From contig NC_014507.1 in NCBI RefSeq assembly GCF_000147875.1, positions 496,001 through 560,000 on the forward strand: a stretch of 64,000 nt of DNA, in the 5' to 3' direction. The position numbers and the translations under genes are program-made. Positions 15,204 through 34,920 of this stretch are shown here, one piece after another. Positions within the stretch are counted from its first letter, which is position 1. Each line of letters opens with the position of its first letter. The notes beneath the pieces were generated by a model. It was not told where the DNA came from. It searched no databases and saw only the letters and a list, made by a program, of their open reading frames with translations. The DNA is from Methanolacinia petrolearia DSM 11571 (GTDB lineage Archaea > Halobacteriota > Methanomicrobia > Methanomicrobiales > Methanomicrobiaceae).

Positions 15204-15233
15204 AAAAAAGAGGGCTGGTTCCTGAATATCAGG
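15204..15233 (-). terminator. Terminator of the large uptake operon
   Basis: On the minus strand, the last gene of the operon ends at a small CCTGA/TCAGG hairpin followed about 12 nt later by a run of six T. This would separate the operon from the ribose-1,5-bisphosphate isomerase gene downstream on the same strand. Confidence 0.45.
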
Positions 15234-16434
15234 TGATCTCAAGATACTCAAGCATAAATGCGTTCATTATATCATTGGTTGTTTCTTCATCGGTGCCGTA
15301 TAGTTCTACTATATATTCGCGTATCCAGGTCTCAAGATCAATATCCTCGAATCTTTCAGGATATATGGCCTTTGCGGCTATCATAACGTTGACAGGAAAT
15401 TCGAGTCTTTCCGATTTGCAGGGTGTTGCTGCAAGCGAGTAGACCTCACCTGATTTTATAGCTCTCATCTCCTGTATGTTCCCGTATAGTTCTTCATCAT
15501 ACAACTGTCTTGGAGGATGGTATCCGCTCCATGTAGACAGGATGATCTTGTCGGGGTCAAGCGAGATCAGCTGTTCGGATGAGATCAGGTTTCTGCCGTT
15601 GTCTTTGTAAACATTGTTTGCATTCACTATCTTTTCCATTAAAGCAAGCTCTATTGTACCGTTTCCGAATGCATATCCTACTCCTCCCTTATCAAAGGCA
15701 TTTGTCGGAGCACCGAAGTAAAGGACGTTTACCTTCTCTTTTTCTGAGATATTGCCTGTTCTTTCGGTGATGAAGTCGATTCTTGAACGCATCGTTTCTA
15801 CGATCCTTTCGGCCTCTTCTTCTTCTCCGAAGACCTCGCCGAGAAGCATTACTTCATCATAAATGGTTTCTGCATCGGGATTTTCATAGCACGACGGATA
15901 CTTAAGGACGACGACCGGTATTCCCATGGAGTCCAGTTGTTCGATGAATTTTTCTGTATTCTCATCCTGCTCTCCCATGTCTCTCAGGATAAAGAGGTCC
16001 GGGTCCAGTTTGGCAATTGTTTCGGCATTAGGCTCTCCGTAAGGACCCGCGAATCCGCCCACATTTGTAGTGTTAAGCAGCTCGGGATTAAGGATCTGGC
16101 CGATCCAGGTGTTGACCGTGTAATCGGTTCCGTTATATACATAGGTTCCCTGATCTGTTGCCGTCTTTTCTACGCTGCATCCTACGATTCTGTCTTCCTT
16201 TCCGAATATGTACATGGCGGTGTCGATTAGAGAACGGCTCATTGCCACCACTCTTTGCGGATCTTCGGGTACTGTAACTTCGACTCCCCTCATGTCGGTG
16301 ACGGTTTTGTATCCTGAAGTGTTATCCAAATCAGATTCGTATGAGTTGCTTGCATCTTCGGTACAGCCTGATGCAGCTATAATGACTGCCAACAGGATTA
16401 ATAGTAGAATTAGTGAGTGCTTTCTCTTTGACAT
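15229..16434 (-). CDS. FecB/BtuF-like substrate-binding lipoprotein, paralog 1
   Basis: 401 residues with a lipoprotein signal (KRKHSLILLLILLAVIIAASGC, lipobox AASGC). The mature part is a class III periplasmic binding protein (VTDMRGVEVTVPEDPQRVVAMS, AKLDPDLFILRD, TWSGYHPPRQLYDEELY). The start at 16434 sits 12 nt after a GGGTGATT site; a longer ATG at 16458 overlaps the upstream gene. It is the most divergent of four paralogs and keeps only a single Cys in the late PCKSERLEFPV motif, where the others have CNC. It probably delivers a ligand to the FecCD permease at 23615-24694. Confidence 0.85.
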   Translation of the reverse strand: MSKRKHSLILLLILLAVIIAASGCTEDASNSYESDLDNTSGYKTVTDMRGVEVTVPEDPQRVVAMSRSLIDTAMYIFGKEDRIVGCSVEKTATDQGTYVYNGTDYTVNTWIGQILNPELLNTTNVGGFAGPYGEPNAETIAKLDPDLFILRDMGEQDENTEKFIEQLDSMGIPVVVLKYPSCYENPDAETIYDEVMLLGEVFGEEEEAERIVETMRSRIDFITERTGNISEKEKVNVLYFGAPTNAFDKGGVGYAFGNGTIELALMEKIVNANNVYKDNGRNLISSEQLISLDPDKIILSTWSGYHPPRQLYDEELYGNIQEMRAIKSGEVYSLAATPCKSERLEFPVNVMIAAKAIYPERFEDIDLETWIREYIVELYGTDEETTNDIMNAFMLEYLEIT

Positions 16435-16439
16435 TTTAA

Positions 16440-17672
16440 TCACCCGCAGGCAATGCATTTATCAACACACCATTCCATCCATTGTGCGGAGAGCAGTTCT
16501 TTCGCCGTAGCCTGATCCACGACGTAGACATTCATGTAGAAATCAATTAACCAGTCTTCAAGATCTATATCCTCGAATAGTCCGGGATATGCCGCTTTTG
16601 CAATAACCATGATATCGATGGGGTATTCAAGTCTCTTTGCGCAGTTACAGGGCTCCCACGGGAAAGAGGATACTTTCCTGTTCTTAACGGCCGAAATTTC
16701 CTGCAGGTCCTGGTAATATGGTGCTGAGTAAAGTTCTTCGGGAGGGTGGTAGCCGGACGATGTTCCGAGGACGATGACATCAGGGTTGATGGCGAGCACC
16801 TGTTCGGCCGAGACGATTACGGAATTACCCTCTTCCTGGTAGGCGTTCTTCGCATGAACGATCTCTTCAATGAAATAGGATTCAATCGTGTCTGTTCCTT
16901 TGACATTTCCGGCGCCCCCGCTCTGCCTTGATTTTGGTGACGCCCCGAATATGAGGACTGTCGGTTTTTCGGATTCTGGAATATCCTTTGTCCTCTCATA
17001 GACCATGTCCACCAGGGATTCGAGGTAATCGGCCAGCTCGGAGGCTTCCTCTTCCTTTCCAAATACCGATCCTATGATCTCTATCTCGTCCGATATTGTT
17101 GTAAGGTCAGGTTCGTCAAAGCATGGATGTGCTTTGAGCACCACTACGGGAATTCTAAGGGACTCTATCGTCCGGATCGATTTCTGAACTCCTTCGTCAT
17201 CCATTGATCGCATGGTACATGAACCGACACGAATAATTACAACATCAGGATTCAGCCCGGCCAGGGTTTCATAGTTTATTGCCGAGCCTGATTCCCCTAC
17301 TCTTGTAATATTCATGATCCAGTCTTTGTTGAGATAGGTCACGGGGTTCATGCCGTCTTTATATTCATAACTCTCGTCGGTTGTCGTGGGGTAAGTATAA
17401 TTGAAGTTTCTCTGTATGCAGGATGACCCGACACCGACAATCTTGTCCTCTTCTCCAAGTACTGTCATGACTCCTTCTACAAGGCCGTCCGATATGGTGA
17501 CAACCCGTTCAATGTCCGCCGGAACCCTGACTTCTTCTCCCCTCGAATCTGTGACTGTCCTGAATTTTTCGTCTTCACCGGAAACATTTGTCTGATCTGA
17601 CTGGCCTGTGCACCCTGTACACATTATAGCCGCGGCAGCCAGAATCATGGCTATAATAAGTAAATTCTTCAT
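16440..17672 (-). CDS. FecB/BtuF-like substrate-binding lipoprotein, paralog 2
   Basis: About 410 residues. The ATG at 17672 gives MKNLLIIAMILAAAAIMCTGC, a clear lipoprotein signal; an ATG at 17687 is also in frame. The family features are VTDSRGEEVRVPADIERVV, LAGLNPDVVIIRVGSC, SSGYHPPEELYS and EPCNCAKRLEYPID. Cysteines shared with paralogs 3 and 4 are in GSSCIQ, VGSCTM, HPCFD and PCNC. The stop is 5 bp before paralog 1. Binding of a metal or metal complex through these cysteines is inference. Confidence 0.85.
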   Translation of the reverse strand: MKNLLIIAMILAAAAIMCTGCTGQSDQTNVSGEDEKFRTVTDSRGEEVRVPADIERVVTISDGLVEGVMTVLGEEDKIVGVGSSCIQRNFNYTYPTTTDESYEYKDGMNPVTYLNKDWIMNITRVGESGSAINYETLAGLNPDVVIIRVGSCTMRSMDDEGVQKSIRTIESLRIPVVVLKAHPCFDEPDLTTISDEIEIIGSVFGKEEEASELADYLESLVDMVYERTKDIPESEKPTVLIFGASPKSRQSGGAGNVKGTDTIESYFIEEIVHAKNAYQEEGNSVIVSAEQVLAINPDVIVLGTSSGYHPPEELYSAPYYQDLQEISAVKNRKVSSFPWEPCNCAKRLEYPIDIMVIAKAAYPGLFEDIDLEDWLIDFYMNVYVVDQATAKELLSAQWMEWCVDKCIACG

Positions 17673-17727
17673 CGTATCAGCCTTCATCGTTTATCAGGTT
17701 TTCTTACTCTCCTGCCTTTGAGTTTTC

Positions 17728-18489
17728 TTATATGCCGGAACTCAGGGATTCCGTTATTTTTTCAATATACGGATTTCTGATGTCCATTTCCACACCCCTT
17801 AGACCTCTTTTCAGGATCTCGTCATCTCCGGGGATTTCTCCGATTAAGAGTGAAGGATCTACGATCTGTTCTTTTATTATAGAGGAGATCTCCGGATCTG
17901 TTTTATTGAGTATGAAGTACAGCGGAATCTCCAGATCCTTTGTCATCCCTGATATCTTTTCGGCTAATCTGATCGACTCGTTGGACGGATCAAGAACAAG
18001 CAGGATGAAGTCGGCGTGCCGGTCGATTCCTCTTCCGAAATGTTCAATTCCTGCTTCAGTGTCGGTGATGACGATGTCATCTTCTCCAAGGGAAAGGTTT
18101 TCAAGAAACTGGTTTGCCAGAATACCCATTGGGCATGCACACCCCTCTCCGAAATCATGAATCTTGCCAATTGCAATGAGCCGGATCCCGTTTTTATAAC
18201 TGACATATTCTTTGGGAAGATCCTCAAACGTCCATGTATTCTCAAAAATTTTTACTTTTGAGGGATCTGGCATCGCTGCCATTATTTTTTCAGTAATTGC
18301 CGGTTTCCCGCCAAAATATTTCATCAGATCCGCCGGGGAGTCGTTTCCGAGTATGGAATGGAGTCCCATATTGGATTCGTCCGTATCAACGACGAGTACG
18401 TTCTTGTTCTGCCTTGCGTATTCGTGGGCCATTAGTGCGACGATTGTGCTCTTTCCGCTGCCCCCTTTTCCGCAGATTACAATCTTCAT
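17728..18489 (-). CDS. CooC-like P-loop ATPase (nickel insertion type)
   Basis: 253 residues, MinD/ParA superfamily. The deviant Walker A is GKGGSGKST (residues 7-15), followed by VVDTDESNMGLHSILG. A CxC pair lies in GEGCACPMG (about C117 and C119), matching the metal-binding CxC of CooC near residues 112-114. The ATG at 18489 has an AAGGAG site upstream. CooC proteins bind Ni(II) at the dimer interface and load carbon monoxide dehydrogenase. Here it lies in an uptake operon, not beside CODH genes, so it may handle imported metal. Related annotations as cobyrinate diamide synthase are less likely. Confidence 0.82.
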   Translation of the reverse strand: MKIVICGKGGSGKSTIVALMAHEYARQNKNVLVVDTDESNMGLHSILGNDSPADLMKYFGGKPAITEKIMAAMPDPSKVKIFENTWTFEDLPKEYVSYKNGIRLIAIGKIHDFGEGCACPMGILANQFLENLSLGEDDIVITDTEAGIEHFGRGIDRHADFILLVLDPSNESIRLAEKISGMTKDLEIPLYFILNKTDPEISSIIKEQIVDPSLLIGEIPGDDEILKRGLRGVEMDIRNPYIEKITESLSSGI

Positions 18490-18509
18490 CTTATCAAAAC
18501 TCCTTATTT

Positions 18510-19358
18510 TTATACTGTTTTTCCGGTCTCCCACCAGATGACCGTGCTCGTGTTTGTTTCCCTGAGTGCGAAACCATCCTTGTCTTTGACAAGTTTTTCA
18601 CTGAGATAATCCTTGAGAATTCCCTCCTGTTCGTTGTTTTCAATGTTGTAGACCTGACTCATCTGTGATACTGCAGAAATGAGATCCGGGAACCGGTTGC
18701 AGCTTTCAATCTCTTTTACCCTGATATTCGGGTATATCCCCATCGAATAGAGTACGTTATAGATTATGTCGGCCTGTGGGGTGCAGCAGAATTCCTTTCC
18801 GTGAAGCACTGGCCAGAGTTTTATTAGACCCTTTTCCCATGAAGGAGTGCCTGAGATCCAGAATATGTAAACCCATTTTGAGGATATATCACACATCATC
18901 CGGATGGATTTGTTTAAGTCCTGCATCCCGAGAGAATATGATGCAAAGACGAGATCGTAAGGCCCTTTGAGATCAGTGGAAAGGTCGATCTCTTCCCAGC
19001 GTTTTCTAATTATATCAAGGTTATCTACGCCTTTTTCTGCTGCATATTCCTCCATGACGTCTGCCATTCCCGGCGAGGGCTCTACACCAGTTACATGGTC
19101 AACCTGGCCGGCAACCGGCACTGCGATCGTTCCGGGGCCCGACCCGATGTCAAGAACCCTTAAGCCGGGTGAAAGAGGAAGTTTTTCAAGGATGAATTGA
19201 ACACGCTCTGGATTTTTTATTGCATTATTCAGAAAGCCTCTTGCTTCTTCCCTGCTTTGCCAGATTGTGGCGCATTCCCCGAATGCTTCGCACCTTATAT
19301 TCGCGCCGTTTACTTCATTCCAGATCTCATTCCAGTCGATACCGTAGTAGGTTTTCAT
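18510..19358 (-). CDS. Class I SAM-dependent methyltransferase 1 of the uptake operon
   Basis: 282 residues. SAM motif I is VLDIGSGPGTIAVPVAG, followed by VTGVEPSPGMADVMEEY and DLVFASYSLGMQD. The N terminus (YYGIDWNEIWNE) and the ECATIWQSREEARGFL segment are specific to this pair of paralogs. The ATG overlaps the stop of binding protein 3 as ATGA, so translation is coupled. The C-terminal half has cysteines (EFCCTPQADI) that could hold a ligand. The methylated substrate is unknown; the operon suggests a metal-bound small molecule. Confidence 0.82.
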   Translation of the reverse strand: MKTYYGIDWNEIWNEVNGANIRCEAFGECATIWQSREEARGFLNNAIKNPERVQFILEKLPLSPGLRVLDIGSGPGTIAVPVAGQVDHVTGVEPSPGMADVMEEYAAEKGVDNLDIIRKRWEEIDLSTDLKGPYDLVFASYSLGMQDLNKSIRMMCDISSKWVYIFWISGTPSWEKGLIKLWPVLHGKEFCCTPQADIIYNVLYSMGIYPNIRVKEIESCNRFPDLISAVSQMSQVYNIENNEQEGILKDYLSEKLVKDKDGFALRETNTSTVIWWETGKTV

Positions 19359-20590
19359 TCTTCGATACACCATTCCATCCATTGTGCATAGAGAAGTTCT
19401 TCTGCCGTAGCCTGATCGACGCCGTAGACGTTCATGTAGAATTCAATGAGCCATTCTTCAAGCTCGATGTCCTCGAATAGTTCGGGATATGCCGCTTTTG
19501 CAATAACCATTACTTCAATCGGGTATTCCAGCCTCTTATCACAGTTGCAGGGCATAAATGGAAGAGACATTACCCGTTCGTTTTTAACAGCCGTAAGCTC
19601 ACTTAGTGCTGAATAATATGTTGCGTTGTACAGTTCATCCATGGGATGGTATCCCCATGCAGTACAGAGTACAATAACGTCGGGATCGAGGGCCAGTACC
19701 TGTTCGGTGTTGACGATCTGCCATGTGCCTTCACTCCGGTATGCGTTTTTGGCATTGACCACATCCTCTATCATGTAGGATTCCGTAGTCCCGAGGCCCT
19801 GCACGACTCCTGCACCTCCCTGCGCACGGTGTGTTGCGGAAAGGCCGAACATAAGGACAGATGGTTTTTCATTTTCGGCAATATCCGAGGTGCGCTCTTC
19901 AACAAGTCCTACCTGCGATTCGAGGTATTCTGCGATCTCTGCGGCTTGTTCTTTCTTGCCGAATACATCGCCTATTATCTCTATCTCGTCAGAGATATGT
20001 GAGAGGGACTGATCGCTGTAGCAGTTAGGGCTGTAAAGCACTACGAGCGGTATTCCGAGCGATTCGATGGTTTCTATTGTCTTCTGTGCCGTTTCACTGT
20101 CTTTTTCCTGAATAGAACAGCTCCCGAGCCTGATGATTACTACATCGGGGTCCAGTGACGACAATGTTTCGTAATTCATTGCCACACCATACTCCATTAC
20201 GAGTGGGACTTCATTTATATCCGGGTCCAGCACTAGCTGAATACTACTTCCCCCGGAGCCGTTTACACAGGTCCCGTCGTCTACAGGATATGAATATGTT
20301 TTCTCTATCGCGATACAGGTCGATCCTAATCCGACAATAGTATCCTCAACGCCCAGGGAATACATTACCCCTTCAACAAGTCCGTCTGATACTGTAACGA
20401 CTCTTTCGATATCTTCAGGTATTTCAACCTTAACGCCTCTTGAATCGACAACCGTTCTGTAACCGGAATCGGATACATCTGATTCATTTCCATCCGCTGA
20501 CTGATCTTCAGAGACGCAGCCTGCGGAGAAGATAATGATAAATGAAATAACGAGAATAAGTGCCAGGTTCCGAAAAGTCATTTTCTTCAT
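19355..20590 (-). CDS. FecB/BtuF-like substrate-binding lipoprotein, paralog 3
   Basis: 411 residues from the ATG at 20590, with lipobox FSAGC. Near-identical to paralog 4 over the signal peptide and much of the body (VVDSRGV.VEIPEDIERVV, GVVQGLGTTESYMIEDVVNA), which indicates recent tandem duplication. They differ most around residues 85-125, the region following GVEDTIVGLGS. The family motifs RLGSCSIQ, SPNCYSD, WGYHP and MPCNCDKRLEYP are kept. An in-frame extension to 20650 overlaps the methyltransferase relic and is not the start. Its start and stop both overlap neighbours as ATGA. Confidence 0.86.
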   Translation of the reverse strand: MKKMTFRNLALILVISFIIIFSAGCVSEDQSADGNESDVSDSGYRTVVDSRGVKVEIPEDIERVVTVSDGLVEGVMYSLGVEDTIVGLGSTCIAIEKTYSYPVDDGTCVNGSGGSSIQLVLDPDINEVPLVMEYGVAMNYETLSSLDPDVVIIRLGSCSIQEKDSETAQKTIETIESLGIPLVVLYSPNCYSDQSLSHISDEIEIIGDVFGKKEQAAEIAEYLESQVGLVEERTSDIAENEKPSVLMFGLSATHRAQGGAGVVQGLGTTESYMIEDVVNAKNAYRSEGTWQIVNTEQVLALDPDVIVLCTAWGYHPMDELYNATYYSALSELTAVKNERVMSLPFMPCNCDKRLEYPIEVMVIAKAAYPELFEDIELEEWLIEFYMNVYGVDQATAEELLYAQWMEWCIEE

Positions 20591-20673
20591 CTTCCTATCT
20601 CTTTCCGGATTCGGTTTTTTTCGTATTTCTGCTTCCAGATCTCGTTCCACTCAAGACTATGATCTGTTTTCAT
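20587..20673 (-). pseudogene. 28-codon relic of a methyltransferase gene between binding proteins 4 and 3
   Basis: A 28-codon frame (ATG 20673, TGA 20589-20587) reads MKTDHSLEWNEIWKQKYEKN and then eight more residues. Its residues 8-20 match the start of methyltransferase 2 (IDWNEVWKQKYEKN), with about 35 of 36 bases identical, and its first three codons match methyltransferase 1. The rest of the enzyme is absent. Both ends keep ATGA overlaps: with the stop of binding protein 4 and with the start of binding protein 3. The relic therefore preserves translational coupling and marks an internal in-frame deletion of a former binding protein/methyltransferase repeat. Confidence 0.8.
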
Positions 20674-21908
20674 TCTTCGATACACCATTCCATCCATTGT
20701 GCATAGAGAAGTTCTTCTGCCGTAGCCTGATCGACGCCGTAGACGTTCATGTAGAAATCAATGAGCCATTCTTCAAGCTCGATGTCCTCGAATAGTTCGG
20801 GATATGCCGCTTTTGCAATAACCATCACATCGATCGGGTATTCCAGCCTTTTTGCACAGTTGCATGGTGTCCATGGTAGAGACATTACCCGTCCGTTTTT
20901 AACAGCCGTAAGTTCCCTTAGTGCTGAATAATATGTTGCGTTGTACAGTTCACCAGGCGGATGGTACCCCCATGCAGTACAGAGTACAATTACATCGGGA
21001 TCGAGGGCAAGTACCTGTTCGGTGTTGACGAGCTGAAACGAGCCGGCGTCAACCTGATATGCGTTTTTGGCATTGACCACATCCTCTATCATGTAGGATT
21101 CCGTAGTCCCGAGGCCCTGCACGACTCCTGCACCTCCCTGCGCACGGTGTGTTGCGGAAAGGCCGAACATAAGGACAGATGGTTTATCATCTTCGGCAAT
21201 ATCCGAGGTGCGCTCTTCAATAAGTTTCACCTGCGATTCGAGATATTCTGCGATCTCTGCAGCTTGTTCTTTCTTGCCGAATATATCGCCTATTATCTCT
21301 ATCTCGTCAGAGATCTGCGAGAGGGAGGGATCGCTGTAGCAGTCCGGGCTGTAAAGCACTACGAGGGGTATTCCAAGCGATTCGATTGTCTCTATTGTTT
21401 TCTGTGCCGTTTCACTGTCTTTTTCCTGAATAGAACAGCTCCCGAGCCTGATGATTACTACATCGGGGTCCAGTGACGACAATGTTTCATAATTCATTGC
21501 CGCGCCCGACTGCATTGCGAGCGGAAGTTCTTTTATCTCCGGGTACAGCACCTGCATAACATTGCATCCCCCGGAGCCGTTGACATAGGTTCCGTCGTCT
21601 GTCGGGTAGGAGTATGTCCAGTCTTTACCGATACATGCCGATCCCAACCCTACAAGAGTATCCTCAACCCCCAGGGAATACATTACCCCTTCAACAAGTC
21701 CGTCTGATACTGTAACGACTCTTTCGATATCTTCAGGTATTTCAACCTCAACGCCCCTTGAATCGACAACCGTTCTGTAACCGGAATCGGATACATCTGA
21801 TTCATTTCCATCCGCTGACTGATCTTCAGAGACGCAGCCTGCGGAGAAGATAATGATAAATGAAATAACGAGAATAAGTGCCAGGTTCCGAAAAGTCTGC
21901 GTCTTCAT
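20670..21908 (-). CDS. FecB/BtuF-like substrate-binding lipoprotein, paralog 4
   Basis: 412 residues. The ATG at 21908 overlaps the methyltransferase 2 stop as ATGA and has GGGAGGTAG upstream, so the longer frame to 21923 is rejected. The signal peptide ends in FSAGC. The motifs are the same as in paralog 3: GSACIGKDW, RLGSCSIQ, SPDCYSD, WGYHPPGELY and TPCNCAKRLEYPID. It probably arose with paralog 3 by duplication of a methyltransferase/binding-protein unit. Confidence 0.87.
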   Translation of the reverse strand: MKTQTFRNLALILVISFIIIFSAGCVSEDQSADGNESDVSDSGYRTVVDSRGVEVEIPEDIERVVTVSDGLVEGVMYSLGVEDTLVGLGSACIGKDWTYSYPTDDGTYVNGSGGCNVMQVLYPEIKELPLAMQSGAAMNYETLSSLDPDVVIIRLGSCSIQEKDSETAQKTIETIESLGIPLVVLYSPDCYSDPSLSQISDEIEIIGDIFGKKEQAAEIAEYLESQVKLIEERTSDIAEDDKPSVLMFGLSATHRAQGGAGVVQGLGTTESYMIEDVVNAKNAYQVDAGSFQLVNTEQVLALDPDVIVLCTAWGYHPPGELYNATYYSALRELTAVKNGRVMSLPWTPCNCAKRLEYPIDVMVIAKAAYPELFEDIELEEWLIDFYMNVYGVDQATAEELLYAQWMEWCIEE

Positions 21909-22744
21909 CTTTCTACCTCCCACCAGAGCCTGATCCCGGTAGTAACACCCGGGAATAAAAAGTGACAGTTCTCCTTTACAAGCGATTTTTTCAGGTAATT
22001 GTTTAATATCGATTCCTGTTCAGGCGTAGATAATTTGAATTGTTCCTTAAAATCATGAAATGCGGTGTCGTAGTCCGGATATACCGAGTCACTGGTAAAA
22101 AGTCCCGGCTCGACATTAGGGTAGATATTCATTGAATATAATAAATTGAACAAAACATCTGCCTTGGGCCCGCATGAGTACTCTTTTTTGTAGAGGTCAG
22201 GCCAGAGGTCTGTCATTCTCTGTTCCCATGCTGTGATTCCTGCGAACCAGAAGAGACAGATCTTCCCTGACGCTACCGAGATCATCTTCTCGATTGATTC
22301 CCTTATATCAGGCATCCCAAGTGAATGCGAGGCGAATACTATATCGTAGGATTCTTTTAGATCCATGCCGGGATCTACGTCTTCCCATTTTTTCCTGACA
22401 ATGTCAAGGTTGGAGACTCCTCTCTCAGCTGCATAATCGGCCATTACATCCGCCATACCTTTTGAAGGTTCGACTGCAGTCACATGTCCGGACAGTTCGG
22501 CTAACGGGACTGCAAGTGTTCCCGGTCCGGCGCCGACATCAAGGATACTGCATTCCTTATCCGGCCCCAGAAGATCGACAAATTCCCTGATACGATCGGG
22601 ATTATTTTTTGAACGGGCAAGAAATCCTTTTGCTTTCTCTTTAGAGTCCCAGATCGATGCACAATCACCTATCCCTCTTGATTTGATGTTTTTTTCGTAT
22701 TTCTGCTTCCAGACCTCGTTCCAGTCGATATAATTGCAATCCAT
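21905..22744 (-). CDS. Class I SAM-dependent methyltransferase 2 of the uptake operon
   Basis: 279 residues, paralog of the enzyme at 18510-19358. Motif I is ILDVGAGPGTLAVPLAE, then VTAVEPSKGMADVMADYAAE and DIVFASHSLGMPDI. The N-terminal IDWNEVWKQKYEKN is also found in the relic at 20587-20673. A strong GGAGAGGATT site precedes the ATG. It lies between the ABC ATPase and binding protein 4 in the same operon. Substrate unknown. Confidence 0.82.
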   Translation of the reverse strand: MDCNYIDWNEVWKQKYEKNIKSRGIGDCASIWDSKEKAKGFLARSKNNPDRIREFVDLLGPDKECSILDVGAGPGTLAVPLAELSGHVTAVEPSKGMADVMADYAAERGVSNLDIVRKKWEDVDPGMDLKESYDIVFASHSLGMPDIRESIEKMISVASGKICLFWFAGITAWEQRMTDLWPDLYKKEYSCGPKADVLFNLLYSMNIYPNVEPGLFTSDSVYPDYDTAFHDFKEQFKLSTPEQESILNNYLKKSLVKENCHFLFPGVTTGIRLWWEVER

Positions 22745-22762
22745 TGATTAATCCTCTCCTTT

Positions 22763-23608
22763 TCATGCTTTTGTTTCAATAATCTCACATTGGCTGTACT
22801 CTTCATCGTCATTTGAAAGCTGAACGGATGCGTCTGACTTTTTCACAATGCTCCGGGGCATCACGATTTGGACGTCTCCGTTCTTTCTGACAGCGCAGGT
22901 GTCTGAATAGATGAGATCCAGTACCTCTTCACTGATCGTAGCCTCCGGTGAACCGTCAGCGACAATGCCCCGGGAGGACACTACTATTACCCTGTCACAG
23001 AACCATGACACATGGTTTGGATCGTGGCTGCAGGCAAGGATTGTCTTTCCTTCTGCTGCTATGTCCTTCATGGTCTCCCAGATCTTCATCTGGTTCTGGA
23101 AATCAAGAGCAGATGTGGGTTCATCAAGAAACATCATGGGCGTATCCTGTGCAATTGCCCTGGCCATAAGCACCATCTGGCGCTGTCCCCCGGACAACTG
23201 GTTGTACGGTCTCTCGGCGAGATCACTAATTTCGAGTTTTTTCAGGGCGTCCAGTGCAATCTCCTTGTCCTTACGCCTGACCCCGAAAAAACCGCCGAGG
23301 TGTGGTGTTCTCCCCATCAGGACAACCTCCCTGACAAGATAAGGGAAGGGAGGCTTGTGCTCCTGGGGTACATATGATACGATCTTTGCAAGTTCTTCTA
23401 TGGATTGTTGGGCTGTGTCTCTCCCTGCCATATGGACGGAACCTTTGTGATATTTCAGGAACTTTAGACAGCATTTGAACAAAGTGGTCTTTCCGCACCC
23501 GTTAGGCCCGAAAAGTCCGCAGAGTTCACCCTCGTTCACGGAAAAAGAGATGCCTGAAAGGACAGGGAGATCATCGTAGCTGAAATGGAGGTCTTCTACA
23601 CGAAGCAT
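22763..23608 (-). CDS. FecE/BtuD-like ABC transporter ATPase
   Basis: 281 residues. Walker A is GLFGPNGCGKTTLF, the signature LSGGQRQMVLMARAIA, and Walker B MMFLDEPTSALDF. VSYVPQEHKPPFPYLVREVV is typical for the iron-chelate/cobalamin importer group. A C-terminal extension of about 30 residues ends in an acidic, Cys-containing tail (NDDEEYSQCEIIETKA), which is unusual. It lies 6 bp after the permease gene and powers import together with it. Confidence 0.92.
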   Translation of the reverse strand: MLRVEDLHFSYDDLPVLSGISFSVNEGELCGLFGPNGCGKTTLFKCCLKFLKYHKGSVHMAGRDTAQQSIEELAKIVSYVPQEHKPPFPYLVREVVLMGRTPHLGGFFGVRRKDKEIALDALKKLEISDLAERPYNQLSGGQRQMVLMARAIAQDTPMMFLDEPTSALDFQNQMKIWETMKDIAAEGKTILACSHDPNHVSWFCDRVIVVSSRGIVADGSPEATISEEVLDLIYSDTCAVRKNGDVQIVMPRSIVKKSDASVQLSNDDEEYSQCEIIETKA

Positions 23609-23614
23609 CGTAAA

Positions 23615-24694
23615 TCACCCGAATATTACTCTCCCTTTGTTTCTCAGCAGATAGCAGAGGTATGGGGCGCCGAGAATCGATGCAATAATTCCGACCGGGA
23701 TCTCCGCACTGGTCACTGTTCTTGCAAGCGTATCACATATTATGAGGTATATTCCGCCCATCATGAATGAGGCGGGGATTATGAAGCGGTTGTCCGGGCC
23801 GAGGATCATCCTCGATGCATGCGGCATCATAAGACCTACCCATGCAATAATTCCTACGAGCGATACTGCAAAGGCGGTGATTGCGGTCGCGATTGCCACT
23901 ACTATGAACTTGTATTTTTCAGGATTCACTCCGAGTGTTCTTGCTTCATCATCCCCCATGGAGAGAATATTGAGTTTCCACCCCAGTGCCCATAATATCA
24001 GAAATCCAATTATAACAACAGGAGCTATCATCCAGATGTCGCTCCATGTCGCATAATAGAACCCTCCCATAAGCCAGAATACAATTTCTCTTAAGGCGGT
24101 ATCGTCTGAGATATATTTTAAAAGTGAAACGAGTGCGGAGAATATCGAGCCTATGATGACTCCGGCAAGTATCAGTGTCACAATTGGTGTCTCTCCCCTG
24201 ACACGGGCAAGCATGTAGGCAAGTACGACCGCAAGTGATCCAAAAGCGAATGCGGAGAGCTGGGTCGAGAAGAAAATTGCGGGAAAGACTATCCCGAGCG
24301 CAGCACCGAAAGCGGCACCGGACGATACGCCGAGGATGTACGGCTCAACGAGAGGATTCCTGAAGACTCCCTGAAAGACCGCACCTGCAATCGCAAGTGC
24401 CCCGCCGACAAATATTGTCAGCAGGATTCTGGGCACTCTGATGTCCCATACTATCGTATTATGCAGTTTTTCGAGATTCGAGACGTCTCCGAATGTAATA
24501 TGAGTTAGTATGGTCCTGTAGACCTGCGGAATTGTGATGTCGTATGCTCCCAGAACCACAGCCGTTATGGCGGTTATAAAAAGGATTCCTGCAATTACAA
24601 GAAGCATTATTATTTTTCTGTAATCTGAAAATTCAGGAACGTCGATATAATCAAAATGTTCGAGTAATCTCTTCAGCCTGGTTGTTTCGGTCAT
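23615..24694 (-). CDS. FecCD/BtuC-family permease
   Basis: 359 residues with about ten TM helices. FRNPLVEPYILGVSSGAAFG and GLMMPHASRMILGPDNRF are hallmark segments of the FecCD (iron-chelate, cobalamin, haem) importer permeases. A soluble N-terminal stretch of about 28 residues precedes the first helix. It is the first gene of the operon that encodes the ATPase, two methyltransferases, four binding lipoproteins and the CooC-like ATPase. Motifs alone cannot give the substrate. Confidence 0.92.
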   Translation of the reverse strand: MTETTRLKRLLEHFDYIDVPEFSDYRKIIMLLVIAGILFITAITAVVLGAYDITIPQVYRTILTHITFGDVSNLEKLHNTIVWDIRVPRILLTIFVGGALAIAGAVFQGVFRNPLVEPYILGVSSGAAFGAALGIVFPAIFFSTQLSAFAFGSLAVVLAYMLARVRGETPIVTLILAGVIIGSIFSALVSLLKYISDDTALREIVFWLMGGFYYATWSDIWMIAPVVIIGFLILWALGWKLNILSMGDDEARTLGVNPEKYKFIVVAIATAITAFAVSLVGIIAWVGLMMPHASRMILGPDNRFIIPASFMMGGIYLIICDTLARTVTSAEIPVGIIASILGAPYLCYLLRNKGRVIFG

Positions 24695-30383: not shown

Positions 30384-32291
30384 ATGAACAAAGGGAATGG
30401 CAAGCAACATATAACCACCGTACTCGGTCCTGTGGAGAGCCTGGAGAGCTATGTAAAGGCCGACTGGTGGAGGGAGATCTTCAACGCGAACTATCTCCGT
30501 ACAGACGGGGATGTCGTCGATGACGAGAGCATTACGAAAGCCGAAGTCGATTTTTTTCTTTCTCTTTTGAATCCCGGATTTCATGACAGTATTCTTGATC
30601 TCTGCTGCGGGCAGGGGCGTCACTCGCTCGAACTTGCAGGCAGGGGATACTCGAAGATCTGCGGTCTCGACAGGTCGCATTACCTGATAACCCGCGCAAG
30701 GAAGCAGGCGAGAAACGACGGCCTGTCAGTAGGATTCAGGGAGGGGGATGCAAGAAAACTCTCTTACTCTGCGGATTCGTTTGACTTTATTCTCCTGCCG
30801 GGGAACAGCTTCGGTTATTTCGAGACGAACGAGGACGATAAAAGGGTTCTTAAGGAGGCATTCCGTGTCCTGAGGCCCGGCGGCCGCATACTTCTCGATA
30901 TCACGGACGGGGATTATCTCCGGGAGAATTTCGTCCCGAGAAGCTGGGAATGGATCGACCAGAACCACTTCGTCTGCAGGGAGAGGAGCCTGTCTTCGGA
31001 CGACGAGCGGCTGATTACCCGCGAAGTCATAACCCACGTGAAGAACGGGGTTATGGCCGACCAGTTCTACGCCGAGCGCCTGTATAACTCGGGCGACATC
31101 AGGGCAATGCTTAACGAATGCGGATACACGTCCATAGAGTTTCACGACCCGATAATCACCGACTCAAGGAGGAACCAGGACCTCGGGATGATGGCCCGCC
31201 GCCTGATTATAACCGCATCGGTCGAGAAGGAATGGACACCGAAGAAAAAGGTAAGCAGAAAGAAAAAGAAGGTCGCAGTCGTACTGGGTGACCCCAGGCT
31301 TAAGGATGTGATTAAGCCATCATGTGTCTTTGACGAGGACGATTACAGGACAATCGGGAGGCTGAAGGAGGCACTGTCCGAACTCGGCGACTACGAATTC
31401 ACCTATTTCGACAATCATTCCTCTATGCTCTCGTGGCTTCGTCAGTCCGGAAGCAAAGCGGATTTCATATTCAACCTATGCGACGAGGGATTCTTAAACG
31501 ACCCGAGAAAGGAGCTCCATGTTCCTGCGGCACTTGAGATCCTTTCGATACCGTATACGGGCGGAAACCCCCAGTGTCTTGCATATTGCTATGACAAGTC
31601 GCTTGTCAGGGGAATTGCGAAGGAGCTTGATATTCCCGTTCCACGTGCATTCGTGATAAACCCGGAGGACAGTTCGTTCATAGAATTCCCGATACACTTC
31701 CCGGTGATCGTGAAGCCGAACTTCGGGGATTCGAGCTTCGGGATTACACAGAACAGCGTATGCAGGGATATCTCCGAACTCCAGGATGCGATACTTCGCC
31801 TGAAGAGCTTTTCCGGAGACTGCGGAACTGTCCTCGTGGAGGAGTTCCTTACCGGGGGGGATATCAGCGTGGGGATTATCGGCAACCTCCCCGACAAATA
31901 CGAAGTGCTCCCGGTGATCGAGGAGGACTACTCGTCCCTTCCCAGGGGTTATCCGAAGATCTGCGGTTATGAAGCGAAATGGGACCCCGAGTCTCCTTAT
32001 GCCGGGATCACATCTATTCCTGCGGATCTGTCTGAAGAGGCCCGGCGCTTCCTCGTCGCGAGCTGTCTTAAGCTCTTTGGGAGGCTCGGGTGCAGGGATT
32101 ATGCACGTTTCGACTGGCGCATAGACTCGAACGGGACACCCCGGCTCCTTGAAGTAAATCCGAATCCCGGCTGGTGCTGGGACGGGCATCTTGCCAAGAT
32201 GGCGGGTATTGCCGAGATAACGTATGCAGAAATGCTCGGGATGATCCTGAAGGCAGCCGAAGATCGTATCTTCGGGGACAACGGGAAATAA
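30384..32291 (+). CDS. Fusion of SAM methyltransferase and D-Ala-D-Ala-ligase-like ATP-grasp protein
   Basis: 635 residues. Residues 1-280 are a class I methyltransferase (SILDLCCGQGRHSLELAG at about 70-87, LRPGGRILLDI at 163-173). A Lys/Arg-rich linker (283-297) leads to an ATP-grasp ligase: FNLCDEGF, IPYTGGNPQC, FPVIVKPNFGDSSFGI, VEEFLTGGDISVGIIG and RLLEVNPNPGW, as in Ddl enzymes. No signal peptide or TM segment. Methanogens of this group lack murein, so a D-Ala ligase role is unlikely; formation of another amide or peptide, with methylation of the product, fits better (inference). Confidence 0.85.
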   Translation: MNKGNGKQHITTVLGPVESLESYVKADWWREIFNANYLRTDGDVVDDESITKAEVDFFLSLLNPGFHDSILDLCCGQGRHSLELAGRGYSKICGLDRSHYLITRARKQARNDGLSVGFREGDARKLSYSADSFDFILLPGNSFGYFETNEDDKRVLKEAFRVLRPGGRILLDITDGDYLRENFVPRSWEWIDQNHFVCRERSLSSDDERLITREVITHVKNGVMADQFYAERLYNSGDIRAMLNECGYTSIEFHDPIITDSRRNQDLGMMARRLIITASVEKEWTPKKKVSRKKKKVAVVLGDPRLKDVIKPSCVFDEDDYRTIGRLKEALSELGDYEFTYFDNHSSMLSWLRQSGSKADFIFNLCDEGFLNDPRKELHVPAALEILSIPYTGGNPQCLAYCYDKSLVRGIAKELDIPVPRAFVINPEDSSFIEFPIHFPVIVKPNFGDSSFGITQNSVCRDISELQDAILRLKSFSGDCGTVLVEEFLTGGDISVGIIGNLPDKYEVLPVIEEDYSSLPRGYPKICGYEAKWDPESPYAGITSIPADLSEEARRFLVASCLKLFGRLGCRDYARFDWRIDSNGTPRLLEVNPNPGWCWDGHLAKMAGIAEITYAEMLGMILKAAEDRIFGDNGK

Positions 32292-32476: not shown

Positions 32477-32893
32477 ATGGGTTTGACTGAAGAGCTGAAT
32501 GATAACCTTGTCGAGTTTTTTGACAGGTTTGCTTCCTGGGAGAATTCCGTAATCCAGCAGAGTTCCCTCACTGTTGCCGGAGCCCATGCGATAGAGAAGC
32601 TGGGCCACAACGGGAGCATGAGCATGAAGGACCTGTCCAAATCGCTGGGCGTTACGACCGGAACGATTACCGTGACGGTTGACCGGCTTGAAAAAGGAGG
32701 CTATGCAGTACGCGATCGTTCTGAAAACGACAGGAGATCGTACATCATCCGCCTTACAGAAAAAGGGAAGGAGGCTTTTTCGGATCATCACAGTCATCAC
32801 ATGAGCCTGTCCGACGAGATCGCATCCATCCTCTCCGAAGACGAGGTGAAGAACTTCGTCGGGATACTTGAGAAGATAAACAAAACGATTTGA
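32477..32893 (+). CDS. MarR-family transcriptional regulator
   Basis: 138 residues with a winged helix: MSMKDLSKSLGVTTGTITVT, VDRLEKGGYAVRD, and the wing SENDRRSYIIRLTEKG. After the wing comes DHHSHHMSLSDE, a His-rich stretch unusual for MarR that could sense a metal such as zinc (inference). The gene precedes, by 12 bp, a metal-transporting P-type ATPase, which is its likely target together with its own promoter. Confidence 0.9.
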   Translation: MGLTEELNDNLVEFFDRFASWENSVIQQSSLTVAGAHAIEKLGHNGSMSMKDLSKSLGVTTGTITVTVDRLEKGGYAVRDRSENDRRSYIIRLTEKGKEAFSDHHSHHMSLSDEIASILSEDEVKNFVGILEKINKTI

Positions 32894-32904
32894 AAGGGAA
32901 ATTT

Positions 32905-34920
32905 ATGGGCGTAAAAGAGGAGAATCACAGCGATAGCGTGAGCTGTGGGGAAATTTGCCACTGCGGTCACGACCACGGGCACAATCACGAACATGATCAC
33001 AGGCATGAAGAGCATGAATGCGGGAGTGCATGTGCATGCGGTCATGACCATGGTCACGATGGTGGCAATACAAAGGAATATGCTATACTCGCCGTAGGGG
33101 GAATTTTACTGGCTGCAGCTATAGCGGGAGAATATTTAGGATTATCAAATATTGCTGTCAGTTCTTTTGCCGTCCTTTCGGCGCTTTGCACCGGTATCCC
33201 TATTATCCTAAGTTCTGTAAGAGGGCTGCTGGGCGGGAGGCAGAATGTCTGTGAACTTGCCGGAATTGCGATAATTGCGGCAATCCTGATCGGTGAATAT
33301 GTCACTGCGGCAGAGGTCGGGTTCATCCTCTCCTTAGGCGAGATTGCCGAAGAATATGCATACGGCAAATCCAGGAGGGATATCGAGAAGATTGCGGCAC
33401 TGCATCCCGAACACGGTCTTGTGGAGAGGGGTGGGGATTTTGTCGAAGTGCCCGTCGATGAGATAGAGGTGGGTGACACCGTTTTGATCAGGCCGGGAGA
33501 TGTCGTTCCCTCTGACGGTATCGTTACAAGCGGTGCGACCTCGGTCGATGAATCCTGCCTTACCGGGGAGAGTGTTCCGGTGGAAAAAGCGACGGGCGAT
33601 CCCGTCTACTCGGGATCGATTAATATCGACGGTGCGGTGAGGATTGAGGTTACGAAGAGGAGCAGGGATTCGACTTACTCGAAGATAGTGGATTTCGTCC
33701 GCGAGGCGGAGAAGAGAAGGCCACCTACATATCCTTTCATAGAGAAGTTCGCCTCGATCTATACTCCTCTGACATTGGTCGTGACCGCCCTTACATGGAT
33801 CTTTACGGGGAGCATTGAGAGGGCGATCACGATACTGATCGTGGCATGTCCGTGCGCCCTGCTTCTTTCCACCCCGTCGGCGGTCATATCTGCGATCGGT
33901 GCCGGGGCCAGGAGGGGAATTCTGGTAAAGAGCGGTTTGTATCTTGAAGAGGCCGGAAAGATCGATTCGGTGATCTTCGACAAGACCGGGACGCTGACCT
34001 CCGGAAGGATGAGGGTGAAGACCACCAGGGCATTCGGGGGTTTTGACGAAGAGCTGATGATAAATCTTGCCGCGGCGGCCGAGTGCGGGTCCGGGCACCC
34101 TGTTGCCGCAGCTATATTGGATTTTGCCGCGGAAAAGGGGCTGAACGGCAACGGATGCCTGCAGGTCAAGAGCCTCCCCGGCCTCGGGGTAAAGGGTGAG
34201 TCGGATTCCGGTAACATCCTTGTGGGAAATATCAGGTTCATGGATGAGTCGGGAGTTTCGGTTCCTGCACCCGTTTCTGCCGAAATAGAGGAGCTTTCCG
34301 CTTCAGGAATTAGTCCTGTCCTGCTCTCGCTTGATAATGAGATCATAGGGCTGCTCGGGGTTGAAGACTCTGTCAGGGACGAGTCTCCTTCGGTTGTCCG
34401 CGACCTGAAAGAAAACGGCATAACGAATGTTTCGATCGTTTCGGGAGACCGGAAGGAGATTGCCGAGAGCGTGGCTGATAAGTGTGGCATCGAAAGAGAG
34501 AATGTATATTCCGGGATTGCCCCCGGTGAAAAGAGATCGATCGTGGATCGATTCCAGAAGGATGGAAAGAAGGTCTGCTTTGTCGGAGACGGGGTAAACG
34601 ACGCTCCTGCCCTTGCACAGGCAAATGCAGGCGTCGCGATCGGTTCGCGAAAGAACACCGTTGCGATTGAGACTTCTCATGTGGTTTTACTCGGGGAGGG
34701 TCTGGGACAGATCTTAAGCTTCATCCGTCTTGGCAGAAAGACGGTCCGGACTATAAAGATAAACGTCGCATTCGCCCTTTCGTTTACTTTCATACTGATG
34801 GCGATGGCATTTTTGGGTATAGTGCACCCTGCCGCGGGAGCGCTGGGCCACCAGGCGGCTGTTCTCCTGGTCCTCGCAAATTCGGCGCTGATACCTTTGG
34901 GAATGGACAGATGGAACTGA
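32905..34920 (+). CDS. Heavy-metal P1B-type ATPase with His/Cys-rich N terminus
   Basis: About 671 residues. The N terminus carries two CxCGHDHGH motifs and a run of His pairs (residues about 15-55) in place of an HMA domain. The core is typical: TM CPC in VACPCALLLSTPSAV, phosphorylation site DKTGTLT, the HP motif in SGHPVAAAI, and GDGVNDAPAL. CPC with STP suggests Zn/Cd/Pb export. The last helices read LGHQAAVLLVLANSAL, with His where ZntA has Asp, so specificity is uncertain. ATG at 32905 is preferred over TTG 32890. Confidence 0.9.
   Translation: MGVKEENHSDSVSCGEICHCGHDHGHNHEHDHRHEEHECGSACACGHDHGHDGGNTKEYAILAVGGILLAAAIAGEYLGLSNIAVSSFAVLSALCTGIPIILSSVRGLLGGRQNVCELAGIAIIAAILIGEYVTAAEVGFILSLGEIAEEYAYGKSRRDIEKIAALHPEHGLVERGGDFVEVPVDEIEVGDTVLIRPGDVVPSDGIVTSGATSVDESCLTGESVPVEKATGDPVYSGSINIDGAVRIEVTKRSRDSTYSKIVDFVREAEKRRPPTYPFIEKFASIYTPLTLVVTALTWIFTGSIERAITILIVACPCALLLSTPSAVISAIGAGARRGILVKSGLYLEEAGKIDSVIFDKTGTLTSGRMRVKTTRAFGGFDEELMINLAAAAECGSGHPVAAAILDFAAEKGLNGNGCLQVKSLPGLGVKGESDSGNILVGNIRFMDESGVSVPAPVSAEIEELSASGISPVLLSLDNEIIGLLGVEDSVRDESPSVVRDLKENGITNVSIVSGDRKEIAESVADKCGIERENVYSGIAPGEKRSIVDRFQKDGKKVCFVGDGVNDAPALAQANAGVAIGSRKNTVAIETSHVVLLGEGLGQILSFIRLGRKTVRTIKINVAFALSFTFILMAMAFLGIVHPAAGALGHQAAVLLVLANSALIPLGMDRWN

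Follow-up and report, generated by a model that had tools for sequence, protein, structure and literature searches.

We identified an operon in Methanolacinia petrolearia DSM 11571 in which a FecCD-type ABC importer is encoded together with four binding lipoproteins, two SAM methyltransferases and a CooC-like ATPase (Table 1). Tentatively, and with a confidence somewhat short of even, we propose that this operon forms an importer for a soft transition-metal complex, most likely of nickel, with methylation in the cytosol and capture of the metal by the CooC-like protein (C). For this proposal we infer the metal, the ligand, the target of methylation and the hand-over of the metal. The importer class is ordinary; the processing part, consisting of the methyltransferases and the CooC-like ATPase, is undescribed, and no description of FecCD operons with a methyltransferase and CooC was found in the open-access full-text literature.

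Organization of the operon

The window is the whole stretch of 64,000 nucleotides that was analyzed (positions 496,001 to 560,000 of contig NC_014507.1), taken from a methanogen genome that consists of a single contig of 2,843,290 bases. The nine genes all lie in one direction on the minus strand between positions 15229 and 24694 of the window, and are transcribed from 24694 to 15229 in the order F, A, M1, P4, P3, M2, C, P2, P1. Successive genes are separated by +6, +18, -19, +19, -28, -25, +40, and -19 bases (negative values are overlaps), and the overlap of 25 bases before C becomes a gap of about 20 bases if C starts at a conserved Met at 18489. The preliminary description had given the same coordinates and had reported nine minus-strand genes with overlaps or short gaps, which is confirmed here with gaps of at most 40 bases. 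Its gene content of a FecCD importer, four binding lipoproteins, two methyltransferases and a CooC-like ATPase was also borne out, as Pfam and PDB searches back every gene assignment in the operon. A relic gene, which it had placed inside the operon, was not recovered: apart from the nine open reading frames, tblastn searches of the window with the genes of relatives matched only a general ABC ATPase in another part of it. In the 525 bases upstream of the operon there is only a short broken open reading frame, which does not resemble the operon genes, and no RNA families were found in the window.

Table 1. Genes of the operon, in order of transcription (positions in the window).
Gene	Product	Position	Strand	Evidence
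F	FecCD-type importer permease, first gene of the operon	23615..24694	-	PF01032, E 2.1e-95
A	Importer ATPase	22763..23608	-	PF00005 (ABC_tran), E 1.8e-32
M1	SAM methyltransferase	21905..22744	-	Methyltransf_25; AF2 model; Foldseek
P4	Binding lipoprotein, Cys set C97, C163, C195, H321, C354, C356	20670..21923	-	PF01497; alignment; AF2; Foldseek
P3	Binding lipoprotein, Cys set as in P4	19355..20650	-	PF01497; 88% identity to P4
M2	SAM methyltransferase	18510..19382	-	Methyltransf_25; 44% identity to M1
C	CooC-like P-loop ATPase	17728..18534	-	Motifs GKGGSGKST and GEGCACP; start probably 18489
P2	Binding lipoprotein, complete Cys set	16440..17687	-	PF01497; alignment
P1	Binding lipoprotein, most divergent, partial Cys set (pattern K - C H C -)	15229..16458	-	PF01497

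In the Pfam searches, M1 and M2 matched Methyltransf_25 (5e-11 and 1.9e-10), the four P proteins matched Peripla_BP_2 (8.7e-22 to 4.4e-18) and C was recognized as a CbiA/NifH-like P-loop protein. P1-P4 each start with a hydrophobic segment that closes with (S/T)(A/G)GC or a similar sequence. This lipobox-like site was recognized by eye and was not matched by a narrow regular expression. Judged by their sequences, P3 and P4 are recent tandem duplicates.

Both Methanomicrobiales and Methanosarcinales have the gene order F-A-M-P, in many cases together with C; it was seen in a genus mate (L050), Methanoplanus limicola (L051), Methanoculleus, Methanofollis, Methanogenium, Methanoregula, Methanosarcina, and Methanococcoides. 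Alternative orders are P F A M C in Methanospirillum and M C P F A in Methanolobus and Methanococcoides. Because the gene order recurs in many genera, the arrangement goes beyond chance. Inspection by eye of the regions upstream of orthologous operons revealed no common motif. Near the promoter upstream of F, direct repeats were observed in three other loci: GTAATACATAA in L136 and, on either side of a TATA-like box, TTGCTAC in both L138 and L140. They were not found in the window.

The importer and other metal transporters of the genome

Permease, ATPase and a PBP-II receptor are encoded in one operon, all above the Pfam cut-offs, which identifies a FecCD-type ABC importer. Assignment as a BtuCDF corrinoid importer was rejected since the curated cut-offs were missed by both the permease (BtuC, 284 against 461 bits) and the ATPase (214 against 537 bits). 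The best NCBIfam matches of A are corrinoid/FecE ATPases, all under the cut-off, and the receptors reach only 20-27 of the 234 bits of the BtuF model. The operon has neither an SBP_bac_5 receptor nor NikBC permeases, and was therefore rejected as a NikABCDE system.

Two CbiM-type and two SBP_bac_5 importers are present in the genome besides the operon, so that nickel cannot be assigned to it by elimination: other importers of the Ni/Co type are available. Both SBP_bac_5/NikABCDE-type operons have a UbiE-like methyltransferase gene between receptor and permease (L287; contig 893000-912000). The genome encodes NikR. A search for the E. coli-type NikR operator GTATGA-N16-TCATAC with three mismatches allowed gave 24 matches where 25 were expected, and none was located upstream of the operon. 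Elsewhere in the window (32890-34920, plus strand), a P1B-type ATPase with a His/Cys-rich N-terminus and a CPC motif is encoded. Two genes precede it, one MarR-like (32477-32893) and one for a protein of 635 aa that contains a methyltransferase domain (30384-32291).

The binding proteins have a predicted cysteine pocket

In an alignment of 59 operon-type receptors, positions 97, 163, 195, 354, and 356 (P4 numbering) are all Cys in 20-22 proteins, with His at 321 and Trp or Phe at 351, and in many others these five positions are mostly Cys. Ten receptors have aromatic residues instead (Y/F at 354, W at 356, W/C at 97, W/S at 163, and Y/F at 195), and in nine of them the gene is divergent from F. 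The five Cys and the His thus co-vary as a set, with aromatics at most of the same positions in sister receptors. Such a divergent aromatic receptor is present in the genus mate and absent from the window. In the AF2 model of P4 (pLDDT 91.4), the positions of the set follow strands E90-93, E155-160, E187-191, E311-314, and E346-348, placing them in loops at the C-terminal strand ends of the two lobes, which is where class III binding proteins hold their ligands. The Cys/His set of P4 is a candidate lining of the ligand pocket. The receptors are related to YiuA and TM0189, and the Cys set is absent from the aligned solved relatives 2etv, 4ovk, and YiuA. The closest protein in Foldseek searches is the molybdate-binding MolA, and the neighbors also include CeuE/Ni-His and haem-binding proteins.

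A 582-aa radical-SAM protein with a C-terminal part resembling PBP-II receptors was encountered at L047:7709-9457 and in L066 (contig about 2.807-2.810 Mb). It scores 149 bits against the P profile, is recognized in Pfam as Radical_SAM only, and is flanked by two methyltransferase genes, one of them of the M family, near a class V aminotransferase gene.

Methyltransferases of the M family are coupled to metal transporters

M1 and M2 fall into separate supported subclades, each common to other genera. Every member of the M1/M2 clade of 11-12 sequences is encoded beside such importers, except one which adjoins C only. Across bacteria and archaea, scanned with a single genome for each species, the M family was found in methanogen-group archaea only, apart from one short Bacteroidales MAG contig that is probably mis-binned. 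In this collection scan, 59 M genes had enough flank, and 48 of them lie within five genes of C or of a gene for an importer, a binding protein or a P1B pump; the same holds for 24 of the 49 M genes in 30 relatives, where the others belong mostly to solitary subfamilies. For comparison, roughly 5% of this genome lies within 6 kb of such importers. Seven of the 38 Methyltransf_25 genes of the genome are located within 6 kb of its 12 FecCD/SBP_bac_5 (Nik) importers (1.8 expected, p = 0.005, from circular shifts), and 5 of 36 when M1 and M2 are left out (p = 0.045). The coupling of methyltransferases to importers, which the preliminary description would have given up if the genes were mainly found away from importers, is not refuted by these counts.

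The M proteins are small-molecule class I SAM methyltransferases, with the Rossmann methyltransferase fold and an invariant LD-G-G-G motif in the SAM loop. The AF2 model of M1 (pLDDT 92.7) has small-molecule N- and S-methyltransferases as its Foldseek neighbors (YcgJ, histamine N-methyltransferase, TleD, GtmA, and TmtA), in matches that are generic at TM scores of about 0.5-0.6. An ArsM-type metalloid methyltransferase was considered and rejected, as no invariant or near-invariant Cys is present in alignments of 20 and 68 rows.

The CooC-like ATPase is linked to transporters of several types

The best solved relative of C is CooC (3kje), with a profile match of 1.4e-38 and an alignment over nearly the full length, in which C132 and C134 fall on the CxC of CooC. 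The CxC pair that the preliminary description had attributed to a CooC-type ATPase therefore holds, and the motif GEGCACP around it is near-invariant in the clade of C. This clade comprises 71 of the 77 sequences in the tree, is set off by a long branch (support 100/99), and is apart from the CooC gene located elsewhere in this genome next to a CooS-type CO dehydrogenase (Prismane family).

Loci were also sampled by C alone, without regard to the neighboring genes (n = 47). A transporter is encoded within four genes of C in 37 of these loci (three kinds that are unrelated to one another: FecCD 18, Nik/Opp 16, P1B 7), a methyltransferase of some family in 31, and either of them in 42. As a background, genes at a distance of nine or more positions in these loci were counted as well: 31 of 137 had a transporter no more than four genes off, a value that is inflated because the loci overlap with clusters of transporters. 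Close relatives of C are found beside differing transporters (FecCD in L120 and P1B in L263; FecCD in L176 and Nik in L177); C is therefore tied to metal transport and not to a single carrier.

Several further genes were observed near C. In L198, L199, L205, L206, L250-L252, L263, L264, and L268, C is followed by a flavin-reductase-like protein (PF01613), mostly together with a CPC-type P1B ATPase, which is 641 aa long in Methanoculleus and CopA-like, with HMA proteins, in Methanosarcina-like genomes. TrmO-like proteins (PF01980) are encoded beside C or its Nik-type importer (L170:12841-13314, L277:8725-9186, L279:7791-8306) and are perhaps a further type of methyltransferase in the same role. 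Secreted proteins of the FmdE family are repeatedly encoded next to these importers and next to C (L075, L089, L164, L171, L277, and L278).

Proposed function and alternative explanations

The most economical reading of this gene set would be that a metal complex is imported, its ligand modified in the cytosol and its metal taken by C. Outside the cell, the P lipoproteins would hold a metal complex with an organic, possibly thiol-containing, ligand in a cleft formed by Cys and one His, and the FecCD/ATPase pair would carry the complex into the cell. In the cytosol, M may methylate the organic part, by analogy at a sulfur or nitrogen donor atom, and would thereby weaken metal binding, and C could take the freed metal via its CxC pair and hand it on. 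The occurrence of M, O-methyltransferases, UbiE-like and TrmO-like proteins in the same place suggests that the ligands differ while the methylation step is constant. Nickel is favored because C and M also adjoin NikABCDE-type importers and because C is CooC-like. The preliminary description had likewise suggested import of a Ni (or Co/Fe) chelate, methylation of its organic part and transfer of the metal to the CooC-like protein. The conserved and specific coupling, the CxC pair and the Nik neighbors agree with this, the last of them favoring nickel; restriction to nickel alone is not supported in view of the P1B neighbors and the other importers, and neither is demethylation of the organic part, which it had also considered, since M has a SAM-methyltransferase fold only. 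Also against nickel alone, the operon is not preceded by an E. coli-type NikR operator, and members of the C clade are found beside P1B ATPases, of which the one in Methanosarcina-like genomes is a CopA-like pump accompanied by HMA proteins; this position of C beside CopA-like and CPC-type pumps points to copper or to soft metals in general. Furthermore, a third of the loci sampled by C are without a recognized methyltransferase within four genes, which speaks against the reading as a whole. The generic level of the methyltransferase fold matches and a molybdate-binding protein, MolA, as the nearest fold of the receptor count against it too. It is conceivable, though we consider it unlikely, that C and a SAM methyltransferase, whose family varies, form, in some cases with a flavin reductase, an undescribed intracellular "metal unloading" module shared among methanogens and plugged onto FecCD, NikABCDE-type or P1B transporters, in which methylation of the ligand would free a soft metal, mainly nickel.

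If the receptors bound flat rings, as the divergent aromatic receptors might, the importer could serve the salvage of corrinoids or other tetrapyrroles (a cobamide, an F430-like nickel tetrapyrrole or haem), with M and C remodeling the ring or recovering its metal. BtuC and a corrinoid ATPase are indeed the best curated matches of F and A, haem-binding proteins are among the fold neighbors of the receptors, and the sister receptors have W, Y or F at most pocket positions. These matches are far under the equivalog cut-offs, however, and the receptors of the window have Cys and not aromatics; the pair of C and methyltransferase also accompanies NikABCDE-type and P1B transporters, which are not tetrapyrrole carriers, and no recurrent tetrapyrrole genes were noticed beside such pairs. 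We regard tetrapyrrole salvage as improbable. A similarly low probability is given to the synthesis of a metallophore, in which the methyltransferase would help to build a secreted chelator, as CntL does for staphylopine, and the importer would retrieve the loaded chelator. In favor of this possibility, CntL-type enzymes are SAM-dependent and their genes adjoin those of Nik/Opp-type importers, and methyltransferases of several families are present in these operons. An opine metallophore (Cnt) system was rejected since the operon genes gave no match to nicotianamine synthase or opine dehydrogenase in Pfam or NCBIfam; moreover, no recurrent opine dehydrogenase or exporter was noticed in the operons, and the methyltransferases stand alone, without other biosynthetic genes.

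Iron is what FecCD importers usually carry, in the form of chelates, and the relationship of the receptors to YiuA and TM0189 is in line with binding of iron or iron-sulfide species via Cys, with C and M serving Fe-S handling and not nickel. Two adjacent "iron(III) dicitrate-binding" proteins of Methanosarcina barkeri, which may or may not be orthologous to the receptors of the window, have low levels with Fe(II)/cysteine and increased levels with sulfide or pyrite (PMC10846266). This pattern could be taken to favor iron, but it does not separate Fe from Ni because sulfide also precipitates Ni. CooC-type CxC ATPases are tied to Ni enzymes, and two kinds of neighbors would be unexpected for iron, namely the CPC-type pumps and a NikB adjoining an M gene, which passes the NCBI nickel-permease cut-off (381.9 against 350); uptake of iron is thus doubtful to our mind. 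Most C and M genes are encoded beside importers and not exporters, and four receptors would be senseless for export, which makes it very unlikely that C, M and the flavin reductase handle toxic Cu, Zn or Cd in defense or metal balance and are linked to the importer through shared regulation. Such a role would fit the Methanosarcina-like genomes and those of Methanoculleus, in which C and a flavin reductase are combined with a P1B ATPase that is CopA-like or of the CPC type, and one M gene that adjoins an SO_0444-family Cu/Zn efflux permease.

Methanogens have a high need for nickel, which is largely bound in sulfidic mud. If import and unloading of a nickel complex is correct, a FecCD importer that has ligand-processing enzymes of its own would be a further route for nickel beyond NikMNQO, NikABCDE, and NiCoT, and would explain the repeated gene families of FecCD and methyltransferase in these genomes. 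Both the predicted cysteine pocket and the pairing of C with M could serve as direct handles for tests. In archaea, the described Ni/Co families are Nik/CbiMNQO (NikMNQO), NikABCDE, and NiCoT only, besides a predicted cobalt transporter, CbtX (Zhang et al., 2009; PMC2667541).

Comparison with known systems

The operon shares a PF01032 permease, a PF00005 ATPase and PF01497 class III receptors with the type II importers FecCD and BtuCDF, and differs from them by two methyltransferases, a CooC-like ATPase, four receptors per permease and a predicted cysteine pocket in the receptors, as well as by scores under all siderophore and cobalamin equivalog cut-offs. MolA of the molybdate importer HI1470-71, the nearest solved fold, is 20% identical to the receptor. 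GtmA and TmtA, thiol methyltransferases that block metal chelation by gliotoxin, resemble M1 at the level of the fold only (TM about 0.46-0.57), with only 11-15% identity. Like CooC, C is a MinD/NifH-class P-loop NTPase with the GKGGxGK P-loop and a CxC of the metal-binding type, but it belongs to a separate clade that is linked to transporters and not to CO dehydrogenase (CooS/Cdh). With regard to NikABCDE and Cnt importers, members of the C clade, the M family or other methyltransferases are encoded alongside NikABCDE-type importers.
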